The translations under genes and the position numbers were made by a program. The notes beneath the pieces are model-generated. The model was not told the origin of the DNA, did not search any database, and saw only the letters and a list, made by a program, of their open reading frames with translations. A stretch of DNA of 48,957 nt from Chlorobiaceae bacterium (GTDB lineage Bacteria > Bacteroidota > Chlorobiia > Chlorobiales > Chlorobiaceae): positions 1 through 48,957 of the forward strand of contig JAAXXP010000007.1 of NCBI GenBank assembly GCA_013334435.1, written 5' to 3'. This document shows positions 26,382-48,641 of the stretch, piece after piece. Every line of letters starts with the position of its first letter. Positions within the stretch are counted from its first letter, which is position 1.

Positions 26382-26873
26382 ATGAAGCTTCTTTCCAGAA
26401 GAAAGTTTCTGCAATCGTCAACGGCGACCGCCCTGCTTTTTATGGCCGGCTGTAAAAAGCAGACCCGGCCCGGATCGAAAGCTGACTACCCGTCGCTGAA
26501 AATCGGCAACAGCAAAACCCTCAAGCCGAACCAGCCGCTCACCTTCAACTTTCCCGACAGGCAGTCGCCATGCGTGCTGGTGAAAACCGGCAGCGAGGCA
26601 ATCGACGGCATCGGTTCGCAGAAGGATATCGTGGCGTTCTCCTCCCTCTGTACGCACATGGGGTGCCCCGTCACCTACAGCAAGGGCCGCCTGATCTGCA
26701 AGTGCCACTACTCGATGTTCGACGTGAACCGCAACGGGCAGACCTTCCAGGGGCTCGCCTCGCAGTGGATTCCGCAGATCGTGCTGCGCGAGGACCCGGC
26801 CTCCGGCGATATCTTCGCGGAAGGCGTTCAGGGCCTCATTTACGGCAGAATCGGCAACCTAAAAGTAAGTTAA
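26382..26873 (+). CDS. aioB: Arsenite oxidase small subunit, Rieske [2Fe-2S], Tat signal
   Basis: SRRKFLQSSTATALLFMAGC (twin-Arg plus lipobox-like), Rieske CTHMGC...CKCHYSMFD; followed by aioA; AAAGGAGG RBS upstream. Confidence 0.92.
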   Translation: MKLLSRRKFLQSSTATALLFMAGCKKQTRPGSKADYPSLKIGNSKTLKPNQPLTFNFPDRQSPCVLVKTGSEAIDGIGSQKDIVAFSSLCTHMGCPVTYSKGRLICKCHYSMFDVNRNGQTFQGLASQWIPQIVLREDPASGDIFAEGVQGLIYGRIGNLKVS

Positions 26874-26885
26874 GGAGCACTCGAC

Positions 26886-31034: not shown

Positions 31035-31058
31035 CGCTATATTCTCTTATGCATAACG
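31035..31058. promoter_or_regulatory. ModE-like operator J (upstream of mod operon)
   Basis: CGCTATAT-TCTCTTAT-GCATAACG; 8-8-8 spacing, each half 7/8 to CGTTATAT / AYATAACG. Confidence 0.65.
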
Positions 31059-31342: not shown

Positions 31343-31366
31343 CGGAATAGAGTCGATGCTATAACG
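31343..31366. promoter_or_regulatory. ModE-like operator H (immediately upstream of modD)
   Basis: CGGAATAG-AGTCGATG-CTATAACG; 8-8-8 spacing, 6/8 dyad, ends 14 nt before the modD ATG. Confidence 0.5.
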
Positions 31367-31380
31367 AATACAGAAAACCA

Positions 31381-32228
31381 TGCTACTGCACCAGCTGCCG
31401 GATTCGGATATCGAGCGATTTCTCGAGGAGGACGTACCGTACGGCGACCTCACCACATCACTGCTCGGCATCGGCGAGCAACAGGGAACCATTACATTCA
31501 CGAGCCGGCACCATACCGTAATTTCGTGCACCGAAGAGGCCGGCCGGGTACTGGAGAAGTGCGGAGCCACGGTAATCTCCCGCCTGCCGAGTGGCACGGA
31601 GGTGGAGGCCGGTGCAGCTTTTCTGGCAGCGTCCGGAAGCGCGGCAAGCCTGCATGCGGGGTGGAAGGTCGCCATGAACCTGCTGGAATACGCTTCGGGC
31701 ATCGCCACGAGAACTGCCAAAGTGGTTCGAACCGCACGCTCGGCCAATCCCGGAATTTCGATCGTCACCACCCGGAAATCATTTCCGGGAACGAAAAAGG
31801 TTGCCATCAAGGCCATCATGGCCGGAGGTGCGCTGCCCCACAGGCTTGGCCTTTCGGAAACCATCCTCGTGTTCCGTCAGCATACTGCTTTCCTCGGAGG
31901 AGTGGAGCGTTTTCTCGATCAGCTTGCTCCCCTGAAAGCGCGTGCACCGGAAAACAAGGTCATCGTCGAGGCCGATACCGCCGATGAGGCGCTGATAATA
32001 GCCGCTGCGGGAGCCGACGTGGTCCAGGTGGACAAGATGGCGGTCGGGGAGCTCGCCATACTGGCCGACGAAATACACCGGAAGTTCCCCGGCGTGAAGC
32101 TTTCGGCCGCGGGCGGCATCAATGCCGAAAACGCCGCGGCTTACGCGGGTACCGGCGTGGATATTCTCGTGCTCTCGGCGGTCTATTTCGGAAAACCTGC
32201 AGACATCAGTGTCGTCATACAACCCTGA
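31381..32228 (+). CDS. modD: ModD protein, NadC-like phosphoribosyltransferase associated with molybdate transport
   Basis: FLEEDVPYGDLTTSLLGI, EYASGIATRTAKVV, TTRKSFPGTKKVAIKAIMAGGALPHRLGLSETILVFRQH; adjacent to modABC. Confidence 0.92.
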
Positions 32229-32248
32229 AAAACAAAAACCTTACTGCC

Positions 32249-32998
32249 ATGCTACAATCCATAAGACGTTCCGCAATCCTCCTGCTCCTGTTCCTGCTCA
32301 CTTCAGCTCCCGCAATGGCGGGTGAACTGAACCTTTCGGTAGCCGCCAGTATGAAAGAGGTGATCAACGAGCTGACCGGGAACTATGAAAAAACTCATCC
32401 CGGCATCACCTTCGTGAAAAATTTCGGTGCTTCGGGCGCCCTGGCCGGCCAGATAGAAAACGGTGCTCCTGCCGATCTCTTCATAGCCGCAAACAGCGAG
32501 TGGATGGATTACCTGAAAGGGAAAAACCTTGTCGACAGGAAAAGCCAGAAAACCTTCGCCTACAACACCCTGGTCTTTGCCGGATCGACCGGCAAAAAAG
32601 TCACATCGATGCGCGACCTTGTCAAACTTGACAAGATTGCCATCGGCAGCCCGAAAAGCGTACCTGCCGGAGAATATGCCACAACGGCCATCAGGAATGC
32701 CGGCCTGGAACAGCAGGTTCAGGGCAAGCTGGTCATGGCAAAGGATGTACGGGAGTGTCTGATGTACGCCGAACTCGGCGAGGTTGACGGTTCATTCGTC
32801 TACCGTACCGATGCCTTGCAGGGCAAAAAGGCTAAACTGCTCTTTACCGTACCGCAGAAACTCTATCCCAGAGTGGTTTACCCGATGGCCCTGACCGTAA
32901 AAGCCGCGACAAACAGGGAGGCACAGAGCTTCCATGCCTACCTGCAGGGCAGCGAAGCCAAATCGGTGCTGAAAAAGTACGGGTTTGTACTGAAATGA
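32249..32998 (+). CDS. modA: Molybdate ABC transporter substrate-binding protein
   Basis: Signal peptide, LNLSVAASMKEVINELTGNYEKTHPGITFVKNFGASGALAGQIENGAPADLFIAA. Confidence 0.95.
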   Translation: MLQSIRRSAILLLLFLLTSAPAMAGELNLSVAASMKEVINELTGNYEKTHPGITFVKNFGASGALAGQIENGAPADLFIAANSEWMDYLKGKNLVDRKSQKTFAYNTLVFAGSTGKKVTSMRDLVKLDKIAIGSPKSVPAGEYATTAIRNAGLEQQVQGKLVMAKDVRECLMYAELGEVDGSFVYRTDALQGKKAKLLFTVPQKLYPRVVYPMALTVKAATNREAQSFHAYLQGSEAKSVLKKYGFVLK

Positions 32999-33031
32999 GA
33001 GTCCGGAAAAAAATGAGCGGATTGTAACGGT

Positions 33032-33721
33032 ATGCTGTCATTGACTGCTGAAGATATCCAGGCCATCCTGCTTTCCCTGAAAGTGGCCCTCACGGCAACC
33101 CTGTTGGCGTTGCCGCTGGGATTTGCAACGGCATGGCTGATGGTGTTCCGCTCGTTCCGGGGGAAGGTGCTGCTGGAAGTGCTCGTTAATCTTCCGCTCA
33201 CCCTCCCTCCGGTAGTTATCGGCTATTTCCTGCTGCTGCTGCTCGGCAAGAACGGTTGGGCTGGCAGGTTTCTCGATGCATGGGGCATCCATTTTATCTT
33301 TACCTGGAAAGCCGCCGTGATCGCCTCGGCAACCGTGGGGTTTCCCCTGCTCGTGCGTTCCGTCAGGCTCGGCATGGAATCGATCGACCGCCAGCTCATC
33401 GAGACATCACGCAGCCTCGGCGCCCGCTGGTTCGATACGCTCATAACGGTTGTGCTGCCGCTCTCGATACGGGGTATTCTTGCCGGATCTTCACTGATGT
33501 TCGCCCGAAGCCTCGGCGAATTCGGTGCAACAATCATCGTTGCCGGCAATATTCCCGGCATCACGCAGACCATTCCTCTGGCCATCTACGACTATGCAAG
33601 CTCACCGTCGAGCACCATGATGGCGCTCTCGCTCTGCCTGGTTGCCGTAGTTATTTCGGTACTGGTGCTCTTTGTACATGAAGTGCTCAGCCGCAACATC
33701 GAAAAGCAGGAGGCTGCGTGA
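33032..33721 (+). CDS. modB: Molybdate ABC transporter permease
   Basis: LSLKVALTATLLALPLGFATAWLM, ETSRSLGARWFDTLITVVLPLSIRGILAGSSLMFARSLGEFGATIIVAGNIPG (EAA loop). Confidence 0.95.
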   Translation: MLSLTAEDIQAILLSLKVALTATLLALPLGFATAWLMVFRSFRGKVLLEVLVNLPLTLPPVVIGYFLLLLLGKNGWAGRFLDAWGIHFIFTWKAAVIASATVGFPLLVRSVRLGMESIDRQLIETSRSLGARWFDTLITVVLPLSIRGILAGSSLMFARSLGEFGATIIVAGNIPGITQTIPLAIYDYASSPSSTMMALSLCLVAVVISVLVLFVHEVLSRNIEKQEAA

Positions 33722-34773
33722 GGCTGCAGATCGATGTCGCAAAAACCCAGGGGCACTTTACACTGCAGGCGGCAGCTGCAGTTGAAGGCCAGCGCACCGG
33801 CATTTTCGGCCAGTCCGGTTGCGGCAAATCCACGCTGGTACACCTGATTTCCGGCCTCCTGCAGCCGGACAGGGGGGAAATCGCAATTGACGGGCTCACC
33901 CTGTTCAGCAGCGAAAAAAAGATATCACTTCCCCCGGAACAGCGCCGCATAGCCATCGTATTCCAGCAGGCCATGCTCTTTCCGCATCTCGGAGTGAAGG
34001 CAAACCTCCTGTACGGCTATAAACGGTGCAGCAAGGCAAACCGTCGCATCGACCCGCAAGCGATCATCGATGTCCTGCAGCTCGAACCGCTGCTGAGTCG
34101 GGGTGTAAACCGCCTTTCCGGCGGTGAAAAACAGCGCGTGGCGCTGGGTCGGTCCGTACTCTCCAACCCTCGTCTGCTCCTGATGGACGAACCGCTCTCG
34201 GCACTCGACGACACCCTGCGATTCCAGATCATTCCCTATCTGAAAAGCGTGAGCGCGGAGTTCGGCATACCCTACCTCTTCATTTCGCATTCCGTACTTG
34301 AAATGCAGCTGATGACCGACCGGATTCTCGTCATGAAAGAGGGAAAAATCATCGAAGAGACCAGCCCTGACCAGCTGGCCCGGAACCGGATGGCTACAAG
34401 CCAGACCGGGTATCTCAACCTGCTCCATCTGGAGGAGCCGTCTGTGGAAAACGGCCTCTATTCCTATCCATGGGGCTCCGGTCGCCTGCTCGTTTCCGAC
34501 GGACAGGAAGGGAAAACATCGCTCTTCGAACTCTCGTCACGCGATATCATCCTCTTCAAGCAGCACCCGAAAGCCATCAGCGCACGCAATCTGCTTGCAT
34601 GCACGGTCACGGAACTGTTTCGCTCAGATGGGAGGCTCGGCGTCGTGCTCTCCTCCTGCGGCAAAAAACTCATTGCAGAGATCGTGCGTTCCGCTGCAGA
34701 GGAGCTCGACATCACCGAAGGGTCAACCATCTTTGCGGCCATCAAGGCATCGTCTTTCAGAAGGCTCGATTGA
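33718..34773 (+). CDS. modC: Molybdate ABC transporter ATP-binding protein, with C-terminal TOBE region
   Basis: Walker A GQSGCGKST, signature LSGGEKQRVALGRS, Walker B LLLMDEPLSAL, C-terminal TOBE-like segment; 4-bp overlap with modB. Confidence 0.93.
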   Translation: MRLQIDVAKTQGHFTLQAAAAVEGQRTGIFGQSGCGKSTLVHLISGLLQPDRGEIAIDGLTLFSSEKKISLPPEQRRIAIVFQQAMLFPHLGVKANLLYGYKRCSKANRRIDPQAIIDVLQLEPLLSRGVNRLSGGEKQRVALGRSVLSNPRLLLMDEPLSALDDTLRFQIIPYLKSVSAEFGIPYLFISHSVLEMQLMTDRILVMKEGKIIEETSPDQLARNRMATSQTGYLNLLHLEEPSVENGLYSYPWGSGRLLVSDGQEGKTSLFELSSRDIILFKQHPKAISARNLLACTVTELFRSDGRLGVVLSSCGKKLIAEIVRSAAEELDITEGSTIFAAIKASSFRRLD

Positions 34774-34776
34774 ACC

Positions 34777-35205
34777 ATGAACAGTTTCTCGGCTCTCATT
34801 ACCGGCATTGAAAACGATGAATCCGGCTCGCTTTTTCTGGTTGAACTCGATGCATCCGGCTTACAGCTCTCCATGCTGCTTTTCGATCTCAAACCGGCCT
34901 TTGCCATAGGTTCCCCGGTAAACGTGCTTTTCAAGGAAACCGGAACGGCTCTCGCAAGAAATCTCAGCGGAGAAATCAGCCTCAGCAACCGGTTTCCCGC
35001 TACAGTTACCGCCATTCGATCAGGAGACGTCCTTGCCGATATCTCACTCGATTCCGCTGCAGGAGAGTGCACGGCCATCGTCACACTCCGGAGTCTGCAG
35101 CGCATGAAACTCGACATCGGCGACTCCGTAACCGTACTGCTTCAGGCGAGCCAGATATCTCTGGTAACCCGCGACAATATTCCGGAAAACCGCATCCACG
35201 AATGA
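34777..35205 (+). CDS. Di-TOBE (ModG/molbindin-like) molybdate-binding protein
   Basis: 142 aa, second half NRFPATVTAIRSGDVLADISLDSAAGECTAIVTLRSLQRMKLDIGDSVTVLLQASQISL is a typical TOBE/mop repeat; lies between two ATPase genes. Confidence 0.75.
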   Translation: MNSFSALITGIENDESGSLFLVELDASGLQLSMLLFDLKPAFAIGSPVNVLFKETGTALARNLSGEISLSNRFPATVTAIRSGDVLADISLDSAAGECTAIVTLRSLQRMKLDIGDSVTVLLQASQISLVTRDNIPENRIHE

Positions 35206-36083
35206 TCAGCATTACCGTCGAGAAAACCCTTTCGGGTGCTGATGGGCCGTTCACGCTTGCGGTGGACCTGGAAATGCAACCGCATTCGCTCCTGACACTC
35301 TACGGAAAATCCGGCAGCGGCAAAACCACGCTGCTGCGCATGCTCGCCGGCCTTACGAAACCCGACAGCGGCCGTATCGAGGTAAACGGCGAAATCTGGT
35401 TCGACAGCCACAAAGGAGTATGTCTGGCGCCGCAGAAACGGAAAGTCGGTCTGGTATTTCAGAACTATGCGCTCTTCCCCACCATGACGGTTCAGGATAA
35501 CCTGCTGTTCGCTCAGGAGAAAAAAGATCCGGTAAAAGTTGACGAAATGCTCGAACTTGCCGGGCTTCTCGCGCTCCGGAAACGGTATCCGGAAACGCTT
35601 TCAGGCGGACAACAGCAGCGGGTGGCTCTTGCGCGGGCCATTCTGCGCCGGCCGAAAATCCTGCTGCTTGACGAGCCGCTTTCGGCGCTCGACCAGAAGA
35701 CCAGAGGAGTTCTGCAGGACGAGATCATCAAGGTTCACCAGCACTTCGGGCTCTCAACCATGCTGGTTTCGCACGACAAGCAGGAGGTATTCAAACTGTC
35801 GGACAGCGTAGCCGTCATCAGGCATGGTCGCATAACGAAAACAGGTACGCCCCACGATGTATTTCTCGACCGGATCACCTCGAACAAGTTCTCCTTCGTC
35901 AGCACGATCCTCTCGATCCGCAAGGTGGACTGCATCTATCTTGCCGTTATCGGCACCGGCAATGAACTGGTGGAAGTGGTGCTGAGCGAAAAGGACGTGG
36001 CGACCATGAAACCGGGAGACGAGGTGCTGGTGGCCTCCAAAGCCTTCAACCCAGTCATCGTCAAACTCCACAGACCGGAATAA
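35202..36083 (+). CDS. Second ModC-like ABC transporter ATP-binding protein
   Basis: LYGKSGSGKTTLLRMLAGL, LSGGQQQRVALARAIL, LLLDEPLSALD; ATGA overlap with preceding gene; ATG at 35202. Confidence 0.9.
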   Translation: MISITVEKTLSGADGPFTLAVDLEMQPHSLLTLYGKSGSGKTTLLRMLAGLTKPDSGRIEVNGEIWFDSHKGVCLAPQKRKVGLVFQNYALFPTMTVQDNLLFAQEKKDPVKVDEMLELAGLLALRKRYPETLSGGQQQRVALARAILRRPKILLLDEPLSALDQKTRGVLQDEIIKVHQHFGLSTMLVSHDKQEVFKLSDSVAVIRHGRITKTGTPHDVFLDRITSNKFSFVSTILSIRKVDCIYLAVIGTGNELVEVVLSEKDVATMKPGDEVLVASKAFNPVIVKLHRPE

Positions 36084-36108: not shown

Positions 36109-36495
36109 TCATTTGCACGTAAAGGCTGGATCGTACTGGTCCCACATCCATCCGGCTACCCGACGAAGCTCTTCGGTGCCCATCGACATGGCGGGCATCA
36201 GCCCGAACCGGGCGACAGCCTGACTGCCGAGTATCGATGCGTCCTCTTTCGGCTGCTGCATGAACTTCACCATATGCGCCACAGCCTCATCCCTGCCGGA
36301 AAAAGCTTTCCGGTAGTGCGAGGCGATACCCAGCACAGGAGGCGCCGTTTTCGGCGGAGGCTGCATCGAATGGCAAACGCTGCAGTTGCTCCTGAAAAGC
36401 GCTTCTCCTCCGGTTGTTACCGGCGAAGCATGGCCTGAGGACGGCATACCGTAAACAAGGAAGAGGGCGACGATAACGCCGATGATTTTTTTCAT
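36109..36495 (-). CDS. Small periplasmic c-type cytochrome (single heme)
   Basis: Signal peptide MKKIIGVIVALFLVYGMPSSGHA, heme motif CSVCH, distal Met in LMPAMSMG. Confidence 0.88.
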   Translation of the reverse strand: MKKIIGVIVALFLVYGMPSSGHASPVTTGGEALFRSNCSVCHSMQPPPKTAPPVLGIASHYRKAFSGRDEAVAHMVKFMQQPKEDASILGSQAVARFGLMPAMSMGTEELRRVAGWMWDQYDPAFTCK

Positions 36496-36515
36496 GTCAA
36501 TAATACTGTTTTGAT

Positions 36516-36794
36516 TTATCCGGTTGTACAACACCGCTGTTTATCTGGCGCTTCGATCATACCCGCCTCGACACGAGCCATCCGCTTCACGTGGCGGAGA
36601 CCGCCAATAAGCCTGTCGCTCGCGGAAAATACCAAGAACCGGCCGTCTTCGGCAACAGGCTGTCCGTTTTCTTCGGACACGATCCGGGTACTGTTGCCGG
36701 TGAAGAGAACATAACAACCGCCAGTCGAGCAGGCCTGTTCACGAGTTCCCTTCCGACGGGGATTGCCCAAAGCCACCTCGTCTGCATTCAGCAT
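36516..36794 (-). CDS. Small hypothetical Cys-containing protein
   Basis: MLNADEVALGNPRRKGTREQACSTGGCYVLFTGNSTRIVSEENGQPVAEDGRFLVFSASDRLIGGLRHVKRMARVEAGMIEAP; protein-like composition, same strand between TonB receptor and cytochrome. Confidence 0.55.
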   Translation of the reverse strand: MLNADEVALGNPRRKGTREQACSTGGCYVLFTGNSTRIVSEENGQPVAEDGRFLVFSASDRLIGGLRHVKRMARVEAGMIEAPDKQRCCTTG

Positions 36795-36890: not shown

Positions 36891-38810
36891 TTAAATATTG
36901 AAGGCGACACCTCCATAGAAGCAGGTGCCTGTAGCACCTGAACCGCCGATATTGCCATAAACGTCAGGTTCCACGTCGAAGATGTTGTCAACACCGATGA
37001 ACAGGTTCGCAACATCGCTGACCTGCCTGGACAGGTAAGCGTGCACCAGTGTATAGCCGTCGGCACGCTCGTACCCTTCGACCCACTGCCTGCCGGCGCT
37101 CACAACCCGGATGTTTCCCCTGAGTCCTCCCTGACTGTCGCTGTAGGCAAGCTTGAGGGTATTGGTCACTCCCGGCACGTAGAGCAGGTTCTCTCCGTTG
37201 CTGCCGTCTTCGGTATCGATGAAACTCAATTCGTCGGAAACCGTAAATCCGTAAGGAAGCCGGAGAGCTGCCGTCAGTTCGATACCTCTGGTCATGGCTT
37301 CGGAAATATTCCGCAGTTCATACGAGGGAATGCTGTTCTTTCCCTCTCTGACATAGCCGACGAACACTTCATGGATCATGTCCCGCATATCGTTGCGGAA
37401 AGCCGTCAGACCGAAAGAAAAGTCTTTCCACGAAAGATCGGCGCCCACTTCATAGGAACGGGAGCGTTCGGCATCGAGATCGGCATTGGCGTAGACGATC
37501 TTCTTTTTCGTATAGGTAGACCCGGTATAAAGCTCATAGAGGGACGGGGCGCGGAATCCTTCGCCGTAGGATGCCCGAAGGCGGAGAAGATCGCTGACGC
37601 GATACCAGAGCGCGGCCTTCGGGCTCGCGGCCGATCCGAAATCCGAATGGGTGTCGTACCGTGCCCCGATCACGAGGCCGGCCCTGTCGCCGAACAGCAT
37701 TTCATCCTGGAGGAAGGCCCCGAAATTGTCGGAATCATGGTCGAGCTCACCGTCGGTACGATCTTCGTTACGGTATTCCACCCCGGTGGTGATGCGATGG
37801 TTTCCTGCGATCGGCCCTGTCCAGCGGGCCTCCGCCTGCCGGCTCGTCTGTTCGAGCGTCGTGGTGGTCGTGGCGCCCCCGACCACAGCGGTCATATCCG
37901 AAGTCCAGTCATACGAAGACTGCCACGCCCGGACATGCAGCGAAGACTCCGCTCCCGTGGCCAGTTCGACACCGGCATAGGCTGAAATCCTTTCGGCATC
38001 GACGGTGCGTTCAAAATCGCCGCTTGTCTGGGTACGATACCCTTCAAGTTCCGTATCGGCATAATTGAACCCGAAAGAAAGCGTTGCCGATGGGGACAGA
38101 TCATAGGTCAGTGAAGTCTGCGCCGAGCCAAGAATCCGGTCGTCGCCGTCGGTCATCAGGTCGGATTCGTCGCGGTCATACCTGTCCTTGTTGCTGTATC
38201 CCCCTGAAACCACATAACCGAATTTCCCCGTTCTGCCGCTCAGCCAACCCTCCGTCAGGACAGTAGCCGCATCACCGTGACGGCTTTCGCCCCCGCGCAA
38301 TGTCAGACCCGCATGAAACGTGTCCGAAGGTTTTCTGGTAATGATATTGACGACGCCGGCTACCGCATCGCTGCCGTACAGGGCCGATCCTGAGCCGCGA
38401 ACCACTTCTATCCGGTCGATCATACCGGCTGGGATTTCGGAGAGATCGACATAATCCTGAAAACCGGAGGTCAGCCGCATGCCGTCAATGAGTACCAGCA
38501 CATGCCTGCCGTCGAGCCCCCTGAGCCGCGCAACACTCTGACGCCCGCTTGCAGGTTCGAGACTGACGCTCTGCGCCTCGGTCAGCAGGTCGGCGACGGT
38601 TTTCGCCCCGCTTTCGACAATCTCTTCCCTGCCGATTACTTCAACTGCCGCCGGAATCTGTGAAACCGGCGTTCGGTTGAGCGTAGCCGTCACCACGACC
38701 TCTCCTGTCTCATAGTATTTCGCGGACTCTGCCGCCCCGGCAGCTTCAGGGTTCAGCAGGAATTGCAGACATCCTGCAAGCATAAGTAATTGAAGGGATT
38801 GTTTCTTCAT
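36891..38810 (-). CDS. TonB-dependent outer-membrane receptor (BtuB/CirA-like)
   Basis: Signal peptide, TonB box-like GEVVVTAT, plug ARLRGLDGRHVLVLIDGMRL...VVRGSGSALYGSDAVAGVVNIIT, C-terminal aromatic GGVAFNI. Start at MKKQSLQLLML. Confidence 0.93.
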   Translation of the reverse strand: MKKQSLQLLMLAGCLQFLLNPEAAGAAESAKYYETGEVVVTATLNRTPVSQIPAAVEVIGREEIVESGAKTVADLLTEAQSVSLEPASGRQSVARLRGLDGRHVLVLIDGMRLTSGFQDYVDLSEIPAGMIDRIEVVRGSGSALYGSDAVAGVVNIITRKPSDTFHAGLTLRGGESRHGDAATVLTEGWLSGRTGKFGYVVSGGYSNKDRYDRDESDLMTDGDDRILGSAQTSLTYDLSPSATLSFGFNYADTELEGYRTQTSGDFERTVDAERISAYAGVELATGAESSLHVRAWQSSYDWTSDMTAVVGGATTTTTLEQTSRQAEARWTGPIAGNHRITTGVEYRNEDRTDGELDHDSDNFGAFLQDEMLFGDRAGLVIGARYDTHSDFGSAASPKAALWYRVSDLLRLRASYGEGFRAPSLYELYTGSTYTKKKIVYANADLDAERSRSYEVGADLSWKDFSFGLTAFRNDMRDMIHEVFVGYVREGKNSIPSYELRNISEAMTRGIELTAALRLPYGFTVSDELSFIDTEDGSNGENLLYVPGVTNTLKLAYSDSQGGLRGNIRVVSAGRQWVEGYERADGYTLVHAYLSRQVSDVANLFIGVDNIFDVEPDVYGNIGGSGATGTCFYGGVAFNI

Positions 38811-38822
38811 ATCGCGGTCAGG

Positions 38823-38846
38823 CATTATAGATTTATTTACATAACG
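38823..38846. promoter_or_regulatory. ModE-like operator G, just upstream of the TonB receptor start
   Basis: CATTATAG-ATTTATTT-ACATAACG; 8-8-8 spacing, begins 12 nt upstream of the start codon. Confidence 0.5.
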
Positions 38847-38875
38847 ATTAATAAAAAAAGCAACGTATCCTTTCA

Positions 38876-38912
38876 GATCTTCTCGACCATCTCCCTGCCG
38901 GCCGAGAAGACC
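38876..38912 (-). promoter_or_regulatory. Stable RNA hairpin in the TonB receptor leader
   Basis: Minus-strand RNA GGUCUUCUCGGCC...GGUCGAGAAGAUC: 13 pairs including 2 G-U; a U7 run follows about 16 nt later. Confidence 0.55.
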
Positions 38913-38949
38913 TTTGATCCCGCTCATGCCTCTTGCTCCAACGCTTCCA

Positions 38950-38969
38950 CTGCCGGATCTATCCGGCAG
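38950..38969. repeat. 9-bp perfect inverted repeat in the TonB receptor leader
   Basis: CTGCCGGAT-CT-ATCCGGCAG. Confidence 0.75.
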
Positions 38970-39023
38970 GAAAGCGCAAAACCAAAAGCGGAAAACAGTT
39001 TTTTCATCTATGAATCACCACAT

Positions 39024-39047
39024 CGCTATAACATTAAAAACATAACG
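39024..39047. promoter_or_regulatory. ModE-like operator F, upstream of TonB receptor / downstream of cobA
   Basis: CGCTATAA-CATTAAAA-ACATAACG; flanked by AT...AT, 8-8-8 spacing. Confidence 0.6.
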
Positions 39048-39062
39048 ATAGGCAAAAAAAAC

Positions 39063-39878
39063 TTACCGGATGAAACCGTTCGAAACAAGTACGCCCGGGG
39101 GCAACACGCCCTCAGGGCTGTTTCTCACCCCGAGATGCCTGCCGATGAAATAAACGACCGGCTCCCTGAGCTTTCCGGAGGCCAGCAACCCCGCGATATC
39201 TCCCATTGTCGCAAGCCCGCACGCCTCATCGGGCCACCCCGATCGTGCAACCGCAACGACCGGCACACAGGAAGGCACCCCCTCTTCGGCAAACACCCTG
39301 AAAATACCGGAAAGATTCCGTGTCGCCATGTAGAGCACAATGGTTGATCCGTGCCTGATCAACTTCGCCGCATCACGCACCAGCGCAAAATCATCGGTTA
39401 TCTCGTTGGCGATGAGGCTGGTCACCGAATCGCTCTGATATTTTTCACTGACCGGCATTGCATAGCCTGCCGCCGCCGCGGCTCCGGCACTTAATCCCGG
39501 TACGACCTCGAACGGAATGTGCATGCTGCCGAGAGCAAGGCACTCATCCTCCGGAGAGCCAAACAGTAAAGGATCGCCGGCTCTGAGACGAACCACCCGG
39601 AGCCCTTCGTAAAAGAATTCACGCATAAGCCGGAGCATGCGCGAACTCCCTGCCTGACCGGAAGGCCCATCATGCCTTACCCGTTCGATAAACCGTACAG
39701 TGGCCGAGGGCGATGCGATGCAAAGAGCCGGTTCGACGGTAGGACAATCGTAGAGAATAACCTCGGCATTCCCTATGATCCGTGCCGCCCTGACGGTCAA
39801 CAGGTCCGGATCGCCAGGCCCGGTCCCTACTATGGAAACCGGATGGTGGACTGGTTCACCATTCATTGTTCTTTCCAT
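39063..39878 (-). CDS. cobA: Uroporphyrinogen-III C-methyltransferase (SUMT)
   Basis: VSIVGTGPGDPDLLTVRAARIIGNAEVILYD, VRLRAGDPLLFG, EVVPGLSAGAAAAAGYAMPV. Confidence 0.92.
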   Translation of the reverse strand: MERTMNGEPVHHPVSIVGTGPGDPDLLTVRAARIIGNAEVILYDCPTVEPALCIASPSATVRFIERVRHDGPSGQAGSSRMLRLMREFFYEGLRVVRLRAGDPLLFGSPEDECLALGSMHIPFEVVPGLSAGAAAAAGYAMPVSEKYQSDSVTSLIANEITDDFALVRDAAKLIRHGSTIVLYMATRNLSGIFRVFAEEGVPSCVPVVAVARSGWPDEACGLATMGDIAGLLASGKLREPVVYFIGRHLGVRNSPEGVLPPGVLVSNGFIR

Positions 39879-39892
39879 ACCATTTATTTGTT

Positions 39893-39916
39893 CGTTATAT
39901 AATAAAAGATATAACG
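39893..39916. promoter_or_regulatory. ModE-like operator A, perfect palindrome in the cobA / lysR divergent promoter
   Basis: CGTTATAT-AATAAAAG-ATATAACG; perfect 8-bp dyad, 8-nt spacer, starts 15 nt upstream of the cobA ORF start. Confidence 0.75.
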
Positions 39917-40035: not shown

Positions 40036-40947
40036 ATGTTTGACTATCGTCTGAAAGTATTTGATACCGTGGCACGGCGGTTGAATTTCACCAAAGCCGC
40101 AGAGGAGCTCTGCATCACCCAGCCCGCCGTCACGAAGCATGTCAAGGAGCTTGAAAAACATTTCGGACTGCAACTCTTCGAACGCAAGGGGAACAGGGTA
40201 GCCCTGACCGAAGGCGGCCTTCTGATACTGAAGCATACCGGATTGCTACGGGAGATAACCCGGCAACTCGAGTATGAGATGCACCGGCTCCATGATTCCC
40301 ATCAGGGCCTGCTGAAACTGGGAGCAAGCACGACAGTTGCCCAATACGCCCTGCCTCCGCTGCTTGCGAAATTCCACCGCGTATACCATGACGTGAACCT
40401 GCAGATGCTTACCGCCAATACCGAGCAGGTAGAACAGGCGCTGATCCGCAAGGAAATTGGACTGGGTATCATCGAAGGAGATACGAAGCGAAAGGATATG
40501 ATGTATACCCCGCTTGCCGATGATGACATCATACTGGTAAGCGGCGCGAAAAATCCCTTCGCAAAAAAAGAGGAAATCAGGGTCGAAGATCTCCTCACCA
40601 TTCCCCTGCTGTTAAGGGAACCGGGATCCGGAACGCTTGAGGTCGTCACTCACGCCCTCAAGAACTCGAACATACGGATTTCCGATCTTGCCGTAGAAAT
40701 GTATCTCGGAAGTTCGGAAGCGATAAAATCCTATCTGGTGCATTCGCAGTGCATGGCCTTCATTTCTCGACATGCCGTCATGCATGAGGTTGCAAACGGA
40801 TTGCTGAAAATGGTCAGGATCAAAAAATTCTCGATCCGACGGAGGTTCTTCTTCATCACTCCCGAGGGCCAGGTCGGAGGGCTGCCTGAAGTGTTCATGC
40901 GATTTGCCTCCGATCATTACAGCGACCTGCTCCCCGCTCAATACTGA
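40036..40947 (+). CDS. LysR-family transcriptional regulator (CysB/YeiE-like)
   Basis: FDTVARRLNFTKAAEELCITQPAVTKHVKELEKHFGLQLFERKGNRVALTEGG; LysR effector domain follows. Confidence 0.94.
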   Translation: MFDYRLKVFDTVARRLNFTKAAEELCITQPAVTKHVKELEKHFGLQLFERKGNRVALTEGGLLILKHTGLLREITRQLEYEMHRLHDSHQGLLKLGASTTVAQYALPPLLAKFHRVYHDVNLQMLTANTEQVEQALIRKEIGLGIIEGDTKRKDMMYTPLADDDIILVSGAKNPFAKKEEIRVEDLLTIPLLLREPGSGTLEVVTHALKNSNIRISDLAVEMYLGSSEAIKSYLVHSQCMAFISRHAVMHEVANGLLKMVRIKKFSIRRRFFFITPEGQVGGLPEVFMRFASDHYSDLLPAQY

Positions 40948-41183
40948 AGCAGTTCATGCAACAGTAAGCGCTTCCGATAACCTGCTGTTATGCCGGATCA
41001 CTTTTTACCATTGGCATGGCAACTGGTTTTTCGGCAATCTTGAACCGCGACCTGCAGTAATACAACACCTCTACAGGGGCCCCCTGAAAACATGGTATGA
41101 GCGTATCGGATCCAGCCCGGGCAGAGACAATTCATGCAATGCGTTTCCCATGGCGCCCGTAAAAGACATCAACAAGGAGAGTG

Positions 41184-42302
41184 ATGAATACCAACACAAA
41201 CAAAGAAAACATGCCGACTGACAACGCGTCCAATCGTGTAGAAAAGGAATTGCCAACCGGGGAACTGATCCGTGAAGCTGAACGACGCGGATTCCGGTGC
41301 CGGGCAAAAACAGCGAAACACAAGATTGACAGCTTGTTTCCGGGGGTTCTGGCATCCGTTACCGTAGCGGCCGCAGCAACATTCCTTTCCGACCATTACG
41401 GTGCTCCGACGATGCTGTTCGCGCTCCTGATCGGCATGGCGTTCCGCTTCCTTTCCGAGGATGAGGGAAAGGCGTTTCCCGGCATCCAGTTCGCATCCAG
41501 AACCATGCTCCGCATCGGCGTGGCGCTTCTCGGAATGCGCATTACGGTCAATCAGATTCAGTCGCTTGGCATAAAGGCGGTATCCATCGTCATATGTTCG
41601 GTTCTGCTGACCATACTGTTCGGTCTTTTTCTGTCAAAATCAATGGGTCGCGGCAAGCGGTTCGGCATCCTGACAGGAGGCAGTGTCGCGATCTGCGGAG
41701 CCTCGGCTGCGCTTGCCGTTGCGGCCATACTTCCCAAAGACGAATACAGCGAACGCAACACCATAGTCACGGTCATCAGTGTCACCGCCCTGAGCACCCT
41801 GGCGATGATCCTGTACCCGATCATTGCCGTTCAACTCGGACTGGATCCGCAGGCTGCCGGAGTTTTCCTCGGTGGCACCATTCATGATGTGGCCCAGGTT
41901 GTCGGGGCTGGATATTCCATGTCGGACAAGACCGGCGATACCGCTACGGTTATCAAGCTGCTCAGGGTTTCCATGCTCGTACCCGCGGTCTTTTCCCTTT
42001 CACTGATTTTCCATAGCAGAAGAGCAATGGAAGGGAGTGATACAAAGAGTTTTCTCTTGCCGCCGTTCATCATCTTTTTCGTCCTGCTGGTGGGCATCAA
42101 CAGCACAGGAATCGTATCCGAACAGCTCCGAACCGTTGTCGGAGATATCTCTCGCTGGTGCCTTGTTGCGGCCATCGGTGCTCTTGGCATGAAAACATCC
42201 CTGAAATCGCTTTTCGAGGCAGGCTGGCAGCCAGTTTCGATTATCGTTGCCGAAACGATTTTTCTTGCGGTGCTTGTCCTTGCCGCAATACACTGGGTGT
42301 AA
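41184..42302 (+). CDS. YeiH/YadS-type putative sulfate exporter family transporter (UPF0324)
   Basis: Multi-TM: LIGMAFRFLSEDEGKAFPGIQFASRTMLRIGVALLGMRITVNQI, VAICGASAALAVAAILP, GTIHDVAQVVGAGYSMSD. Confidence 0.9.
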   Translation: MNTNTNKENMPTDNASNRVEKELPTGELIREAERRGFRCRAKTAKHKIDSLFPGVLASVTVAAAATFLSDHYGAPTMLFALLIGMAFRFLSEDEGKAFPGIQFASRTMLRIGVALLGMRITVNQIQSLGIKAVSIVICSVLLTILFGLFLSKSMGRGKRFGILTGGSVAICGASAALAVAAILPKDEYSERNTIVTVISVTALSTLAMILYPIIAVQLGLDPQAAGVFLGGTIHDVAQVVGAGYSMSDKTGDTATVIKLLRVSMLVPAVFSLSLIFHSRRAMEGSDTKSFLLPPFIIFFVLLVGINSTGIVSEQLRTVVGDISRWCLVAAIGALGMKTSLKSLFEAGWQPVSIIVAETIFLAVLVLAAIHWV

Positions 42303-42418: not shown

Positions 42419-44014
42419 TCACCGGTATTTTTTATAATTGATACCGAGCTTCTGCATCTTCAGACTCAAGGTTCTTCTGGTGAGCCCAAGAGTTTCTGCT
42501 GCAGCTGAAATATTGCCCTTATGATCGCACAAGGCCTCGATGATCATCTCGTACTCTACGGAATTGACTTTTGCTCCAAGCCCCTGCTGTGTGCTGCTGC
42601 CCGATACGGCTGTTTTCTGAAGGGATAGCGGAAGGTCATAACCATGAATGACATCACCTTCGGCGATAATGAGCGCTCTCTCGATAACATTTTCAAGCTC
42701 CCTGACATTTCCCGGCCAGGGATACGAAAGCAGCATCTCCTGCACAGGAATCGATATGCCGTTTATCGACTTGCTGAATTTCTTCGAAAAACGGGAAACG
42801 AAAAATTCCGCAAGGGCAATGATGTCACTGTTTCTTTCGCGCAGGGGAGGGATGACGATAGGAAACACGTTAAGCCTGTAGTACAGATCTTCCCGAAAAC
42901 GCCCCTCTTTGACCATCTGCTGCAGATCGCGATTCGTTGCGGTTATGATTCTTATATTGACTTTTATGGTCTGATTCCCGCCTACACGCTCGATCGTCCT
43001 TTCCTGCAGCACCCGAAGGAGTTTTGCCTGGACAGGCAGCGACAACTCTCCGATTTCATCGAGAAAGACAGTCCCTCCGTCGGCCTCCTCGAACCGGCCC
43101 TTTCTGGCCCTTTCCGCACCGGTATAAGCGCCTTTCTCATGACCGAACAGCTCACTCTCTATGACGCTTTCAGGCAGTGCGGCACAATTGAAGGTAACGA
43201 AGGCCTTATCGGCATCCACGCTGTTGTAATGTATCGCACTGGCGACAAGCTCCTTGCCGACGCCGCTTTCTCCAAGAATCAGTACCGTGGACCTTGTTCT
43301 GACGATTTTATTGATCAGGGAATAAACCTCAAGCATAGGCTTCGAATTGCCTATGATATTCGAAGGGTGAAATCTCTCTTTGAGCGCATTCTGAAGGCGC
43401 TCGTTTTCCATGCGCAAAAAGTGTTTGTCCTCATTCTCGAGCAGATAGAGCTCAACCGCCTGGGCAATCATGGCGGCAACGATACCGAGCAGTTCAACGT
43501 CGAAGGCAAGCAGCTCGTGATCTTCGCAGACCCGTTCGACGCTTATGGCCCCCAATACCTTCTTGCCCCGCAAAATAGGTATGCAGACAAAAGAAAGCTC
43601 CCTGTCTTCCTGAGAGAGAAGGCTTTTCGTCCGGTTCAGAAAATTCGGCTCCTTGCCGATTACGGGCACGATTATTTTCCTGCCCGTTTCTACCACTTTT
43701 CCCGTAATCCCTTCGCCGATGGAATAGACTCCACGGGTTTCCTCTTCCCTGGAGAGCCCTATGCTGTCATGGATGAAGATTTTCCCGGTTCTGCTGTTCA
43801 GCAGGTTGACCATGCCCCTGATAACCCCCATATCCTCTTTCATGATCTTCAGCAGCACCGCAAGCGTATCCGAAAGACTCGAGGATTCGACAACCACCTT
43901 GCTTATGCGGAACAGGGAGGACAATATGTTCGCACGACAGATCGAGCAGTCGTTCTGCAGGGATTTTTCACACGCCCTGGTTGCGCAGAAGTGTAGCCGT
44001 TTTTTTGCGCTCAT
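42419..44014 (-). CDS. anfA: Sigma-54-dependent activator of NifA/AnfA family (GAF-AAA-Fis HTH)
   Basis: GAF domain, [34 protein letters not shown] (GAFTGA-type), C-terminal Fis [30 protein letters not shown]-terminal Cys cluster [17 protein letters not shown]. AnfA assignment rests on neighbouring anf genes. Confidence 0.85.
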
Positions 44015-44414
44015 GGTTCATTTTCTTTTCGCGTGATACAATTAACAATTCACCCGGCAGAGCTTCGAGGCGTTGCCCCCCTGCAAAAGCCATGTTTCCC
44101 AGGAATGACGTCAAGGGTCCCGTAACTGAGCACGAAATGACCGCCCCTTCCCGAAACGGGGCCTGTTCCGCCGGACCGGCAGGAACTGGTTGCATTTGTC
44201 AGGGAGATACGTTGCTGAGGCATTCCGACCCGGGCATCACCAAACAGTTCCGAATACATAGACACCTTGATCACACCATGTCATGATAAATACGGATACA
44301 TAACGATATCCCGGCCGCCCGATCCGCAGCAGAGCCGATGTCCATCGCCTCCCATACGCTCCGCATTGCGCCCTGTTTTTGGACACAGTGAATCGGAGGT
44401 TCCATAACAGGAAC

Positions 44415-44494: not shown

Positions 44495-44518
44495 CGTTAT
44501 GTAATAAAAAACATAACG
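44495..44518. promoter_or_regulatory. ModE-like operator B, perfect palindrome between nifB and anfA
   Basis: CGTTATGT-AATAAAAA-ACATAACG; perfect 8-bp dyad, 8-nt spacer. Confidence 0.75.
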
Positions 44519-44565: not shown

Positions 44566-45840
44566 TCAGGCGCAGCCGCCGCCGGTTCCGCCGCAGCTGG
44601 TTCCGCAGGCGTGTATCGGATTGCTTTTCATAAAAGCGGTCAAATCCTTTCCCGTAAAAAGTCCGAAAACGGCATCCTCGATAATGCCGTCCATAAGCAT
44701 GACCTCTATGCCCTTCTCCCTGAGCACGCTGATCGGCGAATCACCTGCGGCGCTTACCAGAAGCGCCCTGCAGTCTTTCAGAATACCCGACAGTATCTCC
44801 CACCTTTTCCGGCCACCGCCTGGAAGAGGTGCGACTCTTGAATCCAGAAGAACACACCTGTCGCCCTCGGGAGCCATGGCATAAACGAGAAAGCGGTCCG
44901 CTTCTCCCAGATGCTGACCGATCCGTACGCCATCCAGACTGCTGACGGCTATACAGGGTCGGGGCCCTTCCTGATTTTCCGGCATCAGTGCTGCGGTTGC
45001 CAGTTCCCGCATCATGCCGTCACTGTTGGCTTCTCCGATAATGCCGACCGCATCGGCCCGGCAACGGGCGCAATGCTTCATTTGCGGCAGATATTCGGCT
45101 GTCGCATCCTGTATTTCGAGAACCACTTCCGGTAATGGCTCCGGAATGTTTTCGAACACGGTTCCGGGATTACTGTAGTAGGGCATACAGTTGAGAATAT
45201 CCGCGCCAAGGCCGGCAACTGTTCGTGATACCTCGACAATATGGGCATCGTTTATGCCGGGAATGATGATGGAGTTCACCTTGGCGGTGACACCCGCCTC
45301 CTTCAGCTTTTCAAGAGCATGAAGCTGTCTTTTTATAAGGAGTTTAGCGGCATCGACATCCCTGTAGAGTTTCTTTTTATGACGTACCCATGTATAGATC
45401 TCCGATCCGATTTCCGGATCGACAGCGTTGATGGTAATGGTGACGTGACTGACCTCCAGCTCGGCAAGCTCATCGATATAAGGCAACAGATCGAGACCGT
45501 TGGTTGCAATACAAAGCAGCATTTCGGGATATTTTGCCCTTACCAGCCGCAGCGTTTCCATGGTCTCCGATGGATTGGCGAACGGGTCTCCCGGTCCGGC
45601 AATGCCCACCACGGAAATGTTCGGAGACATCGCCATTGCCCGATCCAGATAGTGTATGGCCTGCGCCGGCGTAAGGAGTTTGCTTGTGACGCCCGGACGG
45701 TTTTCGTTCATGCAGTCGAACTTCCTGTTGCAGTAATTGCACTGGATATTGCATTTCGGCGCGACAGGGAGGTGGATTCGCCCGAACCTGTGACGCGACT
45801 CATCGTTGAAGCAGGGGTGGTTTTCTGTTTTCAGTGGCAT
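44566..45840 (-). CDS. nifB: Nitrogenase cofactor biosynthesis protein NifB with C-terminal NifX-like domain
   Basis: Radical SAM CNIQCNYCNRKFDCMNENRPGV, VGIAGPGDPFANP, C-terminal IAVSSLDGVRIGQHLGEADRFLVYA; terminal CGTSCGGTGGGCA tail. Confidence 0.94.
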   Translation of the reverse strand: MPLKTENHPCFNDESRHRFGRIHLPVAPKCNIQCNYCNRKFDCMNENRPGVTSKLLTPAQAIHYLDRAMAMSPNISVVGIAGPGDPFANPSETMETLRLVRAKYPEMLLCIATNGLDLLPYIDELAELEVSHVTITINAVDPEIGSEIYTWVRHKKKLYRDVDAAKLLIKRQLHALEKLKEAGVTAKVNSIIIPGINDAHIVEVSRTVAGLGADILNCMPYYSNPGTVFENIPEPLPEVVLEIQDATAEYLPQMKHCARCRADAVGIIGEANSDGMMRELATAALMPENQEGPRPCIAVSSLDGVRIGQHLGEADRFLVYAMAPEGDRCVLLDSRVAPLPGGGRKRWEILSGILKDCRALLVSAAGDSPISVLREKGIEVMLMDGIIEDAVFGLFTGKDLTAFMKSNPIHACGTSCGGTGGGCA

Positions 45841-45913
45841 GGATTCCTCCCTTCATAAATCAGAATGGTGACAAAATGCTCGAAAGCCTGTTGGATGATG
45901 ATTCTCCGGAACA

Positions 45914-46594
45914 TTACCCGCATGATGAACATCCCGATCGATGCCCATTGCGGCGAGCATCCGAACGGACGGATATGAGCCATCGGCCATCTTCAAGTGG
46001 CGTGGTAGAGAAATTCAGCTTCATGGCGCCAAGTTCACCCGGGAACCATTTCGGAACATGGTCGCAGACAATATCAAGCCTGGTGAAAGGGGTCGATTGC
46101 AAAAAGGGAAGCAGGATATCTTTTGAGTTATGACCTGTTCCGCTGCCCTGCACCTGACTGATATCGATCGTGTAGATCCCCGCGCAGCTGCCGCCCAGAA
46201 ATGCCGGTACCGCCATATCCGAAGCAGATGCCCGGTTTGCCGCAACAGCCGCTGCTGCCGCTTCGGCAGCCTGAGCAGTCAGCTGCATGACGTTGTCAAG
46301 CTGGTCCGCAGGATCCCCAGCGACGGACCAGAGCGTAAATCCAAGCTCGATCAGCATCGTACGGGGAAAACCCCGGACATCCCGGAGAAGCATGATACGG
46401 CAGTCGCCAAGTTTCGCCGCAAGCGTCTGGATTGCGTCTTTGAGGGAGGCCAGCCCGGGGTGGCCTCCGGGTTCGAAAGCAAAGGCGTCGCCAGCTTTCC
46501 ATCGATCTCCCGCCAGGGTGTAGATGATCACCGTTCCCGGCTCACCAAAAGGTATGGCATGGCCATTGCCGTCGACTATCGCTGCTATATGCAT
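45914..46594 (-). CDS. anfO: Iron-only nitrogenase accessory protein AnfO
   Basis: MHIAAIVDGNGHAIPFGEPGTVIIY...LGDCRIMLLRDVRGFPRTMLIELGFTLW; AnfO-like and located downstream of anfK. Confidence 0.82.
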   Translation of the reverse strand: MHIAAIVDGNGHAIPFGEPGTVIIYTLAGDRWKAGDAFAFEPGGHPGLASLKDAIQTLAAKLGDCRIMLLRDVRGFPRTMLIELGFTLWSVAGDPADQLDNVMQLTAQAAEAAAAAVAANRASASDMAVPAFLGGSCAGIYTIDISQVQGSGTGHNSKDILLPFLQSTPFTRLDIVCDHVPKWFPGELGAMKLNFSTTPLEDGRWLISVRSDARRNGHRSGCSSCG

Positions 46595-46661
46595 GGTAAC
46601 TCCGTTTTCATGTTCACACCAGGGATCCGCTAAAAGCGGATGCATTATGGTAAAGGACCCA

Positions 46662-47153
46662 TCAGAATCCGTGTTTCTTGCCCTTGATCGATTCGATTTC
46701 GATGCGGACAACCGCTGTGTTATCGAGGCTTCCCTGCGGGTAGGAAAACTTCCTGTCGGTGAAACGTGCGACGATCATGTCAAGCACTCTCACTTTTTCA
46801 GAAATGTCTTCAATGATGCCTGCCTTGCCGAAACCGATCACCGTACGATGGCGCGCCTCGAAATCGCAGGCCATATCGTTCTCGATCACGCCCTGATCCA
46901 CCGAGACCTCGAAACAGAGCCGGTCGTTCCGGCTGAGAATCTCCATTTTGGTGCCCTTGCTGGATGAATGGAAATAGAGCGCCGCTCCATCATAGGCGTA
47001 AAAAACCGGCACGAGAAACGGAACGTTGTTGTCGCTGAAGGCAAGGTTCATCACGGTCGATAAGCCGAGAATGGCGTCGATCTCATCCCGACTGGTGATC
47101 TCCCGTTCCTTGCGGCGCATGGCTCCGAAGGGAGGAATGGTACTGTTGCTCAT
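46662..47153 (-). CDS. Pyridoxamine 5'-phosphate oxidase-like FMN-binding protein (anf cluster)
   Basis: FGAMRRKEREITSRDEIDAILGLSTVMNLAFSDNNVPFLVPVFYAYDGAALYFHSSSKGTKMEILSRNDRLCFEV. Confidence 0.85.
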   Translation of the reverse strand: MSNSTIPPFGAMRRKEREITSRDEIDAILGLSTVMNLAFSDNNVPFLVPVFYAYDGAALYFHSSSKGTKMEILSRNDRLCFEVSVDQGVIENDMACDFEARHRTVIGFGKAGIIEDISEKVRVLDMIVARFTDRKFSYPQGSLDNTAVVRIEIESIKGKKHGF

Positions 47154-47204
47154 GTTGTACTGTTGTTGTGTGTCCTGTTGCTGCTTCTGTTTATCTTCTC
47201 CTGT

Positions 47205-47250
47205 ATCGGCATGGTGCCGGATTCCCGAAAAAATCCGGCACCATGCCGAT
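47205..47250. repeat. 18-bp perfect inverted repeat 3' of anfK
   Basis: ATCGGCATGGTGCCGGAT-TCCCGAAAAA-ATCCGGCACCATGCCGAT, starts 3 nt after the anfK stop (minus strand). Confidence 0.9.
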
Positions 47251-47252
47251 GT

Positions 47253-48641
47253 TCACCACATATTGAGAATCCATTCTCTGCTTTTCTTGTACTCCATGTC
47301 GGCGAAAAGCGTGTTTGCCATCTGTTCGGCAAGCCATGTCGCACCGGCATATCCGACAACCGGATAACGGTAAAGGCCGGCTCGGTCGTAGGTCGGAAAG
47401 CCTACCCGGACCATGGGAATGTTGTGATCGATTGCCACAAACCGGCCTTTCGAATGGCCGAGTATCAGGTCGAGTTCGAGCCCTTCGTTGATGATCCTGT
47501 TCTCAAGATCCCAAAGGTCGGCATTCATGACGATTTCCATGTCGTAATCGACGTTTTCCTGCAGCGCCCTGATACGGGGGTCTTCCGCATAGGCGGTGTT
47601 GTCGTCGCCGAGAAGAAGCAACTTCGGCTTCATTTCCAGATCGAGGCAAAACTCGGCAAGACCGATGACCAGATCGGGGTTACCGTAAATGGCGACCTTC
47701 TTGTCGGCAAGAAACATATGGGTAAGATCCGTAAGCGCATCGATCGCCCTGCCCCGTTCAAGAACAAGAGACTCCGGAACAGGCTTGCCCGTCATCCTGC
47801 TAAGATTCTTCAGGAAGGTGTCCGTATTGCGGATGCCGACCGGAGTTGGCCCTATGATGGAAGGAATCCCGAACTCCTTTTCGAGATATTTCGCCGCTTT
47901 GGTTCCTTCGTACCGGTTCAGGGCAATCGTTCCATAGGCATTTGCCGTATCTTTCAAATCGGCAATGGTCGTATTCCCATGCGAAACATGGTTGCCGTCC
48001 GGCATAAGCGGCGAATCGAAACTCTCGATTTCGAAAAGCACGGTCGCATCGATCTGCATTTCCGAGAGCAGGTGCTTCAGGGCTGTCACGTCACCGGGGT
48101 TGACCCAGCCGGTTATAAGATTGATCCTGCCGTTCGGTTCGCCTTTCTCGGCGAAGTACCTGACGAAATCCCTCACCGCCGTATCGTACCCGCTGATCAT
48201 GCTGCCGACGAAGCTCGGACAGTGGATCGGGATGAGGTGTACCTCGCGGCCGGCATACTTGGTGTCGAGCAGCTCCTCCTGCAGCTTGATGACGACACCA
48301 TCCACGTCGTCGCCGATCACCTCCGTCGAGCAGGTGGTGATGATCGGAATGACCTTGACGTCGGGATAGCGCATCAGCAGAACGTCGACGGCCTGCTCCA
48401 CACGGTCGAGCGCACCGAACACGGCGCCATCCTCGTGCACGGATGAAGATGCGATTTCGAAGCTTTCCTTGAAGTGCTGGGAAATCAGCAGCCTGACGAA
48501 CATGACGCAACCCTGACCGCCGTGCACGATGCCGATGCACTCCTTGATGCCGATGCTGGCAAACTGGGCGCCGGCGGGCTGACAGGTGAAGATCGGGTTG
48601 ATAACGCCGGTCCGTTCCTTGGTTTTAAGTTCACAGTTCAT
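47253..48641 (-). CDS. anfK: Iron-only nitrogenase (FeFe) beta subunit AnfK
   Basis: INPIFTCQPAGAQFASIGIKECIGIVHGGQGCVMFVRLLISQHFKESFEIASSSVHEDGAVFGA, TTCSTEVIGDDVDGV, FEIESFDSPLMPDG, SHGNTTI, LNRYEGTKAAKYL; recalled AnfK sequences fit better than VnfK or NifK. Confidence 0.9.
   Translation of the reverse strand: MNCELKTKERTGVINPIFTCQPAGAQFASIGIKECIGIVHGGQGCVMFVRLLISQHFKESFEIASSSVHEDGAVFGALDRVEQAVDVLLMRYPDVKVIPIITTCSTEVIGDDVDGVVIKLQEELLDTKYAGREVHLIPIHCPSFVGSMISGYDTAVRDFVRYFAEKGEPNGRINLITGWVNPGDVTALKHLLSEMQIDATVLFEIESFDSPLMPDGNHVSHGNTTIADLKDTANAYGTIALNRYEGTKAAKYLEKEFGIPSIIGPTPVGIRNTDTFLKNLSRMTGKPVPESLVLERGRAIDALTDLTHMFLADKKVAIYGNPDLVIGLAEFCLDLEMKPKLLLLGDDNTAYAEDPRIRALQENVDYDMEIVMNADLWDLENRIINEGLELDLILGHSKGRFVAIDHNIPMVRVGFPTYDRAGLYRYPVVGYAGATWLAEQMANTLFADMEYKKSREWILNMW

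Follow-up and report, generated by a model that had tools for sequence, protein, structure and literature searches.

A TonB-dependent receptor of a green sulfur bacterium, here called REC, probably serves as an outer-membrane transporter that stands under the direct control of the regulator ModE and imports a molybdenum (Mo)-containing ligand when Mo is scarce. Its gene lies in the window, that is, the whole stretch of 48,957 nucleotides that was analysed, which is contig C84 of a 2.02 Mb genome (G000; 139 contigs, 99.6% complete). Regulation of REC by ModE is well supported at the sequence level, and a Mo-containing ligand would be the simplest cargo to fit both the regulator and the neighbouring genes.

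The receptor

REC (36891..38810, minus strand) encodes a protein of 639 amino acids with a signal peptide, a plug and a barrel. The longest open reading frame runs from 38927 to 36891; we preferred the start at 38810 because it yields the signal peptide and aligns with the orthologues. Both the plug (PF07715, 92.7 bits) and the beta-barrel (PF00593, 172.6 bits) score above their Pfam cut-offs, and these profiles identify REC as a member of the TonB-dependent receptors. The top NCBIfam model is TonB-B12/BtuB (TIGR01779), with 217.5 bits, far below the cut-off of 599.7; REC also stays below the cut-offs of the heme receptor model TIGR01785 (212 bits, cut-off 316.85) and of the siderophore receptor model TIGR01783 (163.8 bits, cut-off 223.5). 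Since all three scores are below cut-off, the family names no ligand. The predicted structure (pTM 0.79, pLDDT 75.7) is closest in fold to Cir and PfeA, with BtuB next, and the sequence profile ranks them alike; an earlier note on this DNA had described REC as a BtuB/CirA-like receptor. Cir reaches 256.7 bits and PfeA/FepA about 181-187 bits, with a TM-score of ~0.77, but the identity of these receptors to REC is ~20%, and it is REC that has ModE boxes ahead of it. Heme receptors are also found among the matches, besides Cir, PfeA and BtuB, and the fold therefore leaves the ligand unnamed as well. ZnuD and OprC are present among the fold matches. Among named relatives, those closest to REC belong to two MAGs, one of Pelodictyon luteolum and one of Chlorobiaceae, which marks the host as a green sulfur bacterium.

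ModE and its boxes

Molybdate-loaded ModE binds DNA and represses modA-type promoters, and in Rhodobacter the regulator controls anfA. The ModE gene of G000 scores 103.8 bits with TIGR00637, above cut-off. Its product aligns with E. coli ModE (1b9m) over residues 19-268, nearly the full length, and retains the DNA-contact region, with the GISYK-AW helix and the TGGKGGGG wing; the predicted protein is a full-length ModE that has both the DNA-binding and the molybdate-binding domain.

The published E. coli ModE consensus is ATCGNTATATA-N6-TATATANCGAT (PMC545781). Boxes were sought with its inner part, the core pattern CGTTAT-N12-ATAACG (12 positions), and the full score was counted over 20 positions of this E. 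coli consensus. The earlier note had placed sites at 38823 and 39024 before the receptor gene, and both were confirmed, each with 11/12 core positions; box coordinates are given without strand. The proximal box (CATTATAGATTTATTTACATAACG, 38823-38846; 15/20, 28-mer at 38821) lies 36 nt ahead of the REC start codon and contains a TATAAT-like hexamer. The distal box is CGCTATAACATTAAAAACATAACG (39024-39047; 16/20, 28-mer at 39022), and G027 has a 12/12 box at the matching place. That the two sites flank the leader of the receptor gene holds as far as their positions go, but the distal one adjoins the upstream SUMT-like gene, 16 nt past its stop, and a further site, a perfect 12/12 box at 39893-39916, precedes that gene, between it and a divergent LysR gene. 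Other boxes of the window are found upstream of the AnfA-type activator gene (a perfect 12/12 at 44495-44518 and a weaker 10/12 at 44282-44305) and upstream of modD (11/12 at 31035-31058 and a second, weaker 10/12 at 31343-31366).

Such an accumulation of sites is far above expectation, with 7 sites of at least 15/20 on the E. coli consensus in the window against a mean of 0.025 in Markov-shuffled windows. Genome-wide, core sites with 0-1 mismatch number 8, and the window holds 5 of them (39893, 44495, 31035, 38823 and 39024); of the remaining 3, 2 precede a TonB receptor-modA-modB-modE operon (C46) and 1 a radical-SAM gene (C60). When 2 mismatches were allowed, the genome gave 41 core sites against 43 for a reversed-pattern control, and therefore only sites with 0-1 mismatch were used as evidence. 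A simple sigma-70 consensus scan at the REC sites gave no match, so the overlap of box and promoter rests on the one TATAAT-like hexamer and on position.

An Rfam search at the receptor returned no RNA element. In the leader between the REC boxes (38815-39010) there are two short hairpins and an ORF of 27 codons, which ends in a stop overlapping the ATG at 38927 and which G027 does not retain. A small ORF after the distal site (MKKLFSAFGFALSCRIDPAVEALEQEA) was weighed as a possible leader peptide and then discarded, because the next relative, G027, does not have it.

Conservation of the boxes

REC was sought in 86 genomes of the family, which yielded 17 boxed orthologues, that of the window included; 1 more was found in another family. 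Spanning two families and three genera, 18/18 orthologues carry a box of at least 11/12 no farther than 300 nt from the start; 5/5 close out-paralogues, which have ~47% identity and form a separate clade with full support, have none. The earlier note had named as refuting a receptor that responds only to B12 or iron and whose two sites are missing ahead of its orthologues; the sites are kept in every orthologue. When each receptor of the family was given its own shuffle control, 0/300 shuffles reached the box score for 16/17 receptors and 2/300 for the remaining one. G086, the genome from the other family, holds an orthologue of 54% identity, whose perfect 12/12 box lies 47 nt ahead of the start; this genome carries its own ModE (109.1 bits). 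Because the ModE box has been kept in all 18 orthologues, the channel probably imports a Mo complex under Mo scarcity, a condition that can arise in sulfide-rich water.

Conservation is concentrated in the core: over the 18 orthologues, 10/12 positions are conserved at 94-100% and two positions at 67%, and the flanking columns are mostly at 28-61%, the exceptions being a T-run 7-13 nt upstream and the A at -2. The box begins 26-39 nt before the gene start in 13/18 orthologues, at 47 nt in G086 and at 118-283 nt in four, and REC of the window has both the near-start and the far kind. In the tree the boxed receptors are not firmly one clade, a weak resolution due to the long branch of G025. The distribution of the boxed receptor is patchy, with 17/86 family genomes against 77/86 in which ModE was found. 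Among the residues fixed in the family's boxed receptors and differing in the out-paralogues are R213, R268, R339, M306 and H358; from the order of strands in the model, some of them may be placed near the outer rim.

Genes around the receptor

Genes for molybdate transport are frequent companions of REC: mod genes, as modDABC, modA-modB or nif-modABE, adjoin the orthologue in 11/17 family genomes. In the window, a modD-modA-modB-modC operon (31380..34773, plus strand) is found together with genes for a TOBE-domain protein (34777-35205, plus) and a ModC-like ABC ATPase (35067-36083, plus), and modDABC adjoins the receptor in G000, G027, G011, G007 and G012. In G040, G044, G076, G042 and G045, the second receptor is followed in turn by modA, modB, a site, the receptor and cytochrome c, and the modA of G040 scores above the TIGR01256 cut-off. 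G025 has nif, a site, REC, two sites, the second receptor, modA, modB and modE, with four boxes in total. The earlier note's candidate route by which Mo, or a complex linked to it, would cross the outer membrane is supported by the mod neighbours together with the boxes, present in all orthologues and in none of the out-paralogues. The anf genes, which it had also named as possible neighbours, show a partial tie, most orthologue genomes having no detected anfK.

The second receptor adds to this picture. In G000 it is a TonB receptor of 742 amino acids, unrelated to REC, directly upstream of modA-modB-modE and with two boxes. It is present in 31/86 family genomes; among the 30 listed, 21 lie on the strand of modE and no more than 3 kb upstream of it, and in 20 a box of at least 11/12 stands at a distance of up to 400 nt. 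As two receptors unrelated to each other share this Mo regulator, their control is unlikely to be accidental. At L097:1257-6198, G040 carries a third TonB receptor, of 608 amino acids, which has two perfect ModE boxes ahead and is followed by a sulfite-oxidase-fold protein, modA and modE.

Directly downstream of REC lies the gene of a small periplasmic c-type cytochrome (36109..36534, minus strand; motif CSVCH), whose Pfam score is below cut-off (23.7 vs 27); its homologue in L070 scores above it. Cytochrome c is a conserved neighbour of the receptor, also beside the out-paralogues that have no ModE site, and is therefore a marker of the receptor family, not of Mo. In the Chlorobaculum-like genomes, the gene after the receptor encodes a PF00174 protein in several cases and a small cytochrome c in others. 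The former is a secreted single-domain protein of the sulfite-oxidase/YedY fold (39.9 bits; L082:8752-9306), with homologues in L080, L083, L079, L085, L084, L078, L086, L092, L097 and L094; in G040 it has modA and a ModE box as neighbours. Its role in the periplasm might be to bind Mo or a Mo cofactor. On the other side of the receptor, the genes immediately upstream in several Chlorobaculum-like genomes are BtuF/FecCD-like, not mod. The conserved cluster that precedes the receptor there (L080:9026-13205, L078:15-7395) encodes a BtuF/FepB-type binding protein, an HypB/CobW-like GTPase, an SBP_bac_6 protein that looks cytosolic, with no evident signal peptide, and an unusual ABC ATPase, which bears an additional domain at its N-terminus; G011 adds a FecCD permease.

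Alternative functions

REC might instead import an iron chelate, ModE control then serving the greater iron need of the Fe-only nitrogenase in the absence of Mo. We consider this unlikely. The window does contain a Fe-only nitrogenase segment (44566..48641, minus strand), with anfK (47253-48641, minus), anfO (45914-46711, minus) and a nifB paralogue (44566-45840, minus), and a NifA/AnfA-type sigma-54 activator (42419..44014, minus) that has its own ModE box; the Cir/PfeA-like fold of REC is ferric-catecholate-like, and a cytochrome c neighbour would suit the reductive release of iron. However, anfK, which is above cut-off in 9/86 family genomes, is so in 5/17 of those with a boxed receptor (G000, G045, G040, G004 and G011), and four anf genomes (G037, G059, G006 and G075) are without the receptor. 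A sixth anf genome with the receptor may be G008, in which one contig ends in an anfA-like gene. Moreover, where the receptor adjoins mod, in the 11/17 genomes mentioned above, it does not adjoin iron genes. As anfK was not detected in 12/17 boxed-receptor family genomes, a role in serving the Fe-only nitrogenase alone is unlikely, and an exclusive coupling of REC to this enzyme was rejected on the phyletic pattern.

A receptor for a corrinoid or another tetrapyrrole, BtuB-like and tied to the ModE-controlled SUMT-like gene, is in our opinion very improbable. The SUMT-like tetrapyrrole methyltransferase (39063..39878, minus strand) is a divergent member of its family (TIGR01469, 148.9-149 bits, below the cut-off of 185) and the sole SUMT match in the genome. 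ModE boxes precede not only the gene of the window but also the homologous genes of G027, G005 and G013, each of which lies near the receptor. REC has a barrel similar to that of BtuB and the TonB-B12 model as its top NCBIfam match, and a BtuC-like FecCD permease and a CobW-like GTPase are encoded upstream in Chlorobaculum-like genomes. Nevertheless, the TonB-B12 score is far from the cut-off, the corrin-pathway marker CbiH is absent from the genome, and the cobalamin riboswitches point elsewhere: of 5 in the genome, 3 precede other TonB receptors (26-29% alike), with none within the window, the region 38780-39080 included. This element being missing at REC and present at three other receptors, a B12 cargo is unlikely. 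Beyond the SUMT-like gene, the window continues with the divergent LysR-family regulator (40036..40947, plus) and a YeiH-like putative transporter (41181..42302, plus).

That the sites are genuine ModE sites working mainly for the neighbours (the SUMT-like gene, anfA or mod), with incidental control of the receptor, is hardly credible: although several window genes have boxes and the SUMT-like gene lies near 39024, a box stands within 300 nt of the receptor start in every orthologue despite differing neighbours, and for one orthologue no mod/anf gene was found nearby.

Model for Mo uptake

For REC as a ModE-controlled importer of a Mo-containing ligand, we propose the following scenario. With plentiful molybdate (or tungstate), ModE-Mo would occupy the palindromes over the promoter and the leader, and REC would be off. 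Such a negative sign of the control is suggested by the position of the proximal box, 26-47 nt before the start in 14/18 orthologues, with the TATAAT-like hexamer inside. When Mo becomes scarce, the repressor would leave and REC would be made along with the periplasmic cytochrome c. The receptor could then import a Mo ligand that porins would not admit in sufficient amounts because of its size or rarity; a thiomolybdate, a scavenged Mo-metallophore or a Mo-organic chelate would be examples. The Mo would be freed in the periplasm, possibly with the participation of the cytochrome c, and passed to ModABC, presumably by a hand-over to ModA. The second TonB receptor, in the nif-mod operon, would probably answer the same need.

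Green sulfur bacteria inhabit sulfidic water and fix nitrogen. Mo becomes particle-reactive thiomolybdate in such water. According to a Mo-limitation review, the bioavailability of Mo is hardly understood, and microbes may have undiscovered routes of access (PMC3440940). The high-affinity molybdate ABC transporters of green sulfur bacteria probably reflect adaptation to low Mo, as an excerpt of another article notes (PMC8346585), and within this excerpt no outer-membrane step is named and TonB has 0 occurrences. The two ModE-marked receptors would provide a gene for the missing outer-membrane step. They are probably present in cultured strains too, so the outer-membrane Mo step is directly testable. 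We speculate, more tentatively, that green sulfur bacteria possess an uptake system of the outer membrane, powered through TonB and dedicated to sulfidic Mo (thiomolybdates, Mo-S-organic complexes). In it, two unrelated ModE-repressed receptors would each cooperate with a periplasmic partner that has a redox or Mo-binding role, either a small cytochrome c or a secreted single-domain protein of the sulfite-oxidase fold, and the partner would strip off the Mo and deliver it to ModA; this wider scheme is possible but doubtful.

The regulatory part of the model resembles the known ModE regulon (modABC in E. coli, anfA in Rhodobacter) in the full ModE, in the palindrome and its spacing, and in the sites at mod genes and at the anfA-type activator; it differs in that two outer-membrane TonB receptors are the putative targets here. 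To our knowledge, the ModE targets that can be named in other organisms belong to transport across the inner membrane or to the cytoplasm. The nearest folds to REC, Cir and PfeA, are catecholate-siderophore receptors, which speaks for the model, as catechol-type compounds are the class of chelators reported for Mo uptake in Azotobacter. This system would share with ours a chelate-based Mo route, but the chelator is known there and only the receptor here. The siderophore-aided character of this uptake in the diazotroph is reported in the review passages (Bellenger 2008, cited in PMC3440940). ZnuD (Zn), OprC (Cu) and CntO (metal-pseudopaline) are likewise TonB receptors for non-iron metals, but they respond to other metals than Mo. 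REC may be seen as a metal-regulated TonB receptor for a non-iron metal, and, if this is true, Mo would become one more of the few metals besides iron that have such a receptor. Our literature search found no Mo-regulated TonB receptor and no paper linking ModE with a TonB receptor. ModE elements of green sulfur bacteria were reportedly analysed by Studholme and Pau in 2003, who may have listed such a gene.

Two further loci of G000 deserve mention. In C60 (4001-11812, L113), a perfect ModE box lies 24 nt before a radical-SAM fusion gene, whose product has two parts, a radical-SAM domain (AmmeMemoRadiSam-like) and one that resembles periplasmic binding proteins; farther along are two SPASM radical-SAM genes, a B12-radical-SAM gene and a lysine-2,3-aminomutase-like gene. 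This operon was considered as a metallophore pathway and rejected: its first gene occurs in just one other family genome, as a two-piece match, and is therefore not a fixed partner. In the window, upstream of the mod operon, lies an arsenite-oxidase-type aioBA (26358-29450), a Mo enzyme. Just before aioB, the segment 26184-26230 (ATATATATCTTTCAAGCTATATATCGTTATAGCGAT) is AT-rich and self-similar, and in one register it matches 15/20 of the ModE consensus with a misfit in the core.
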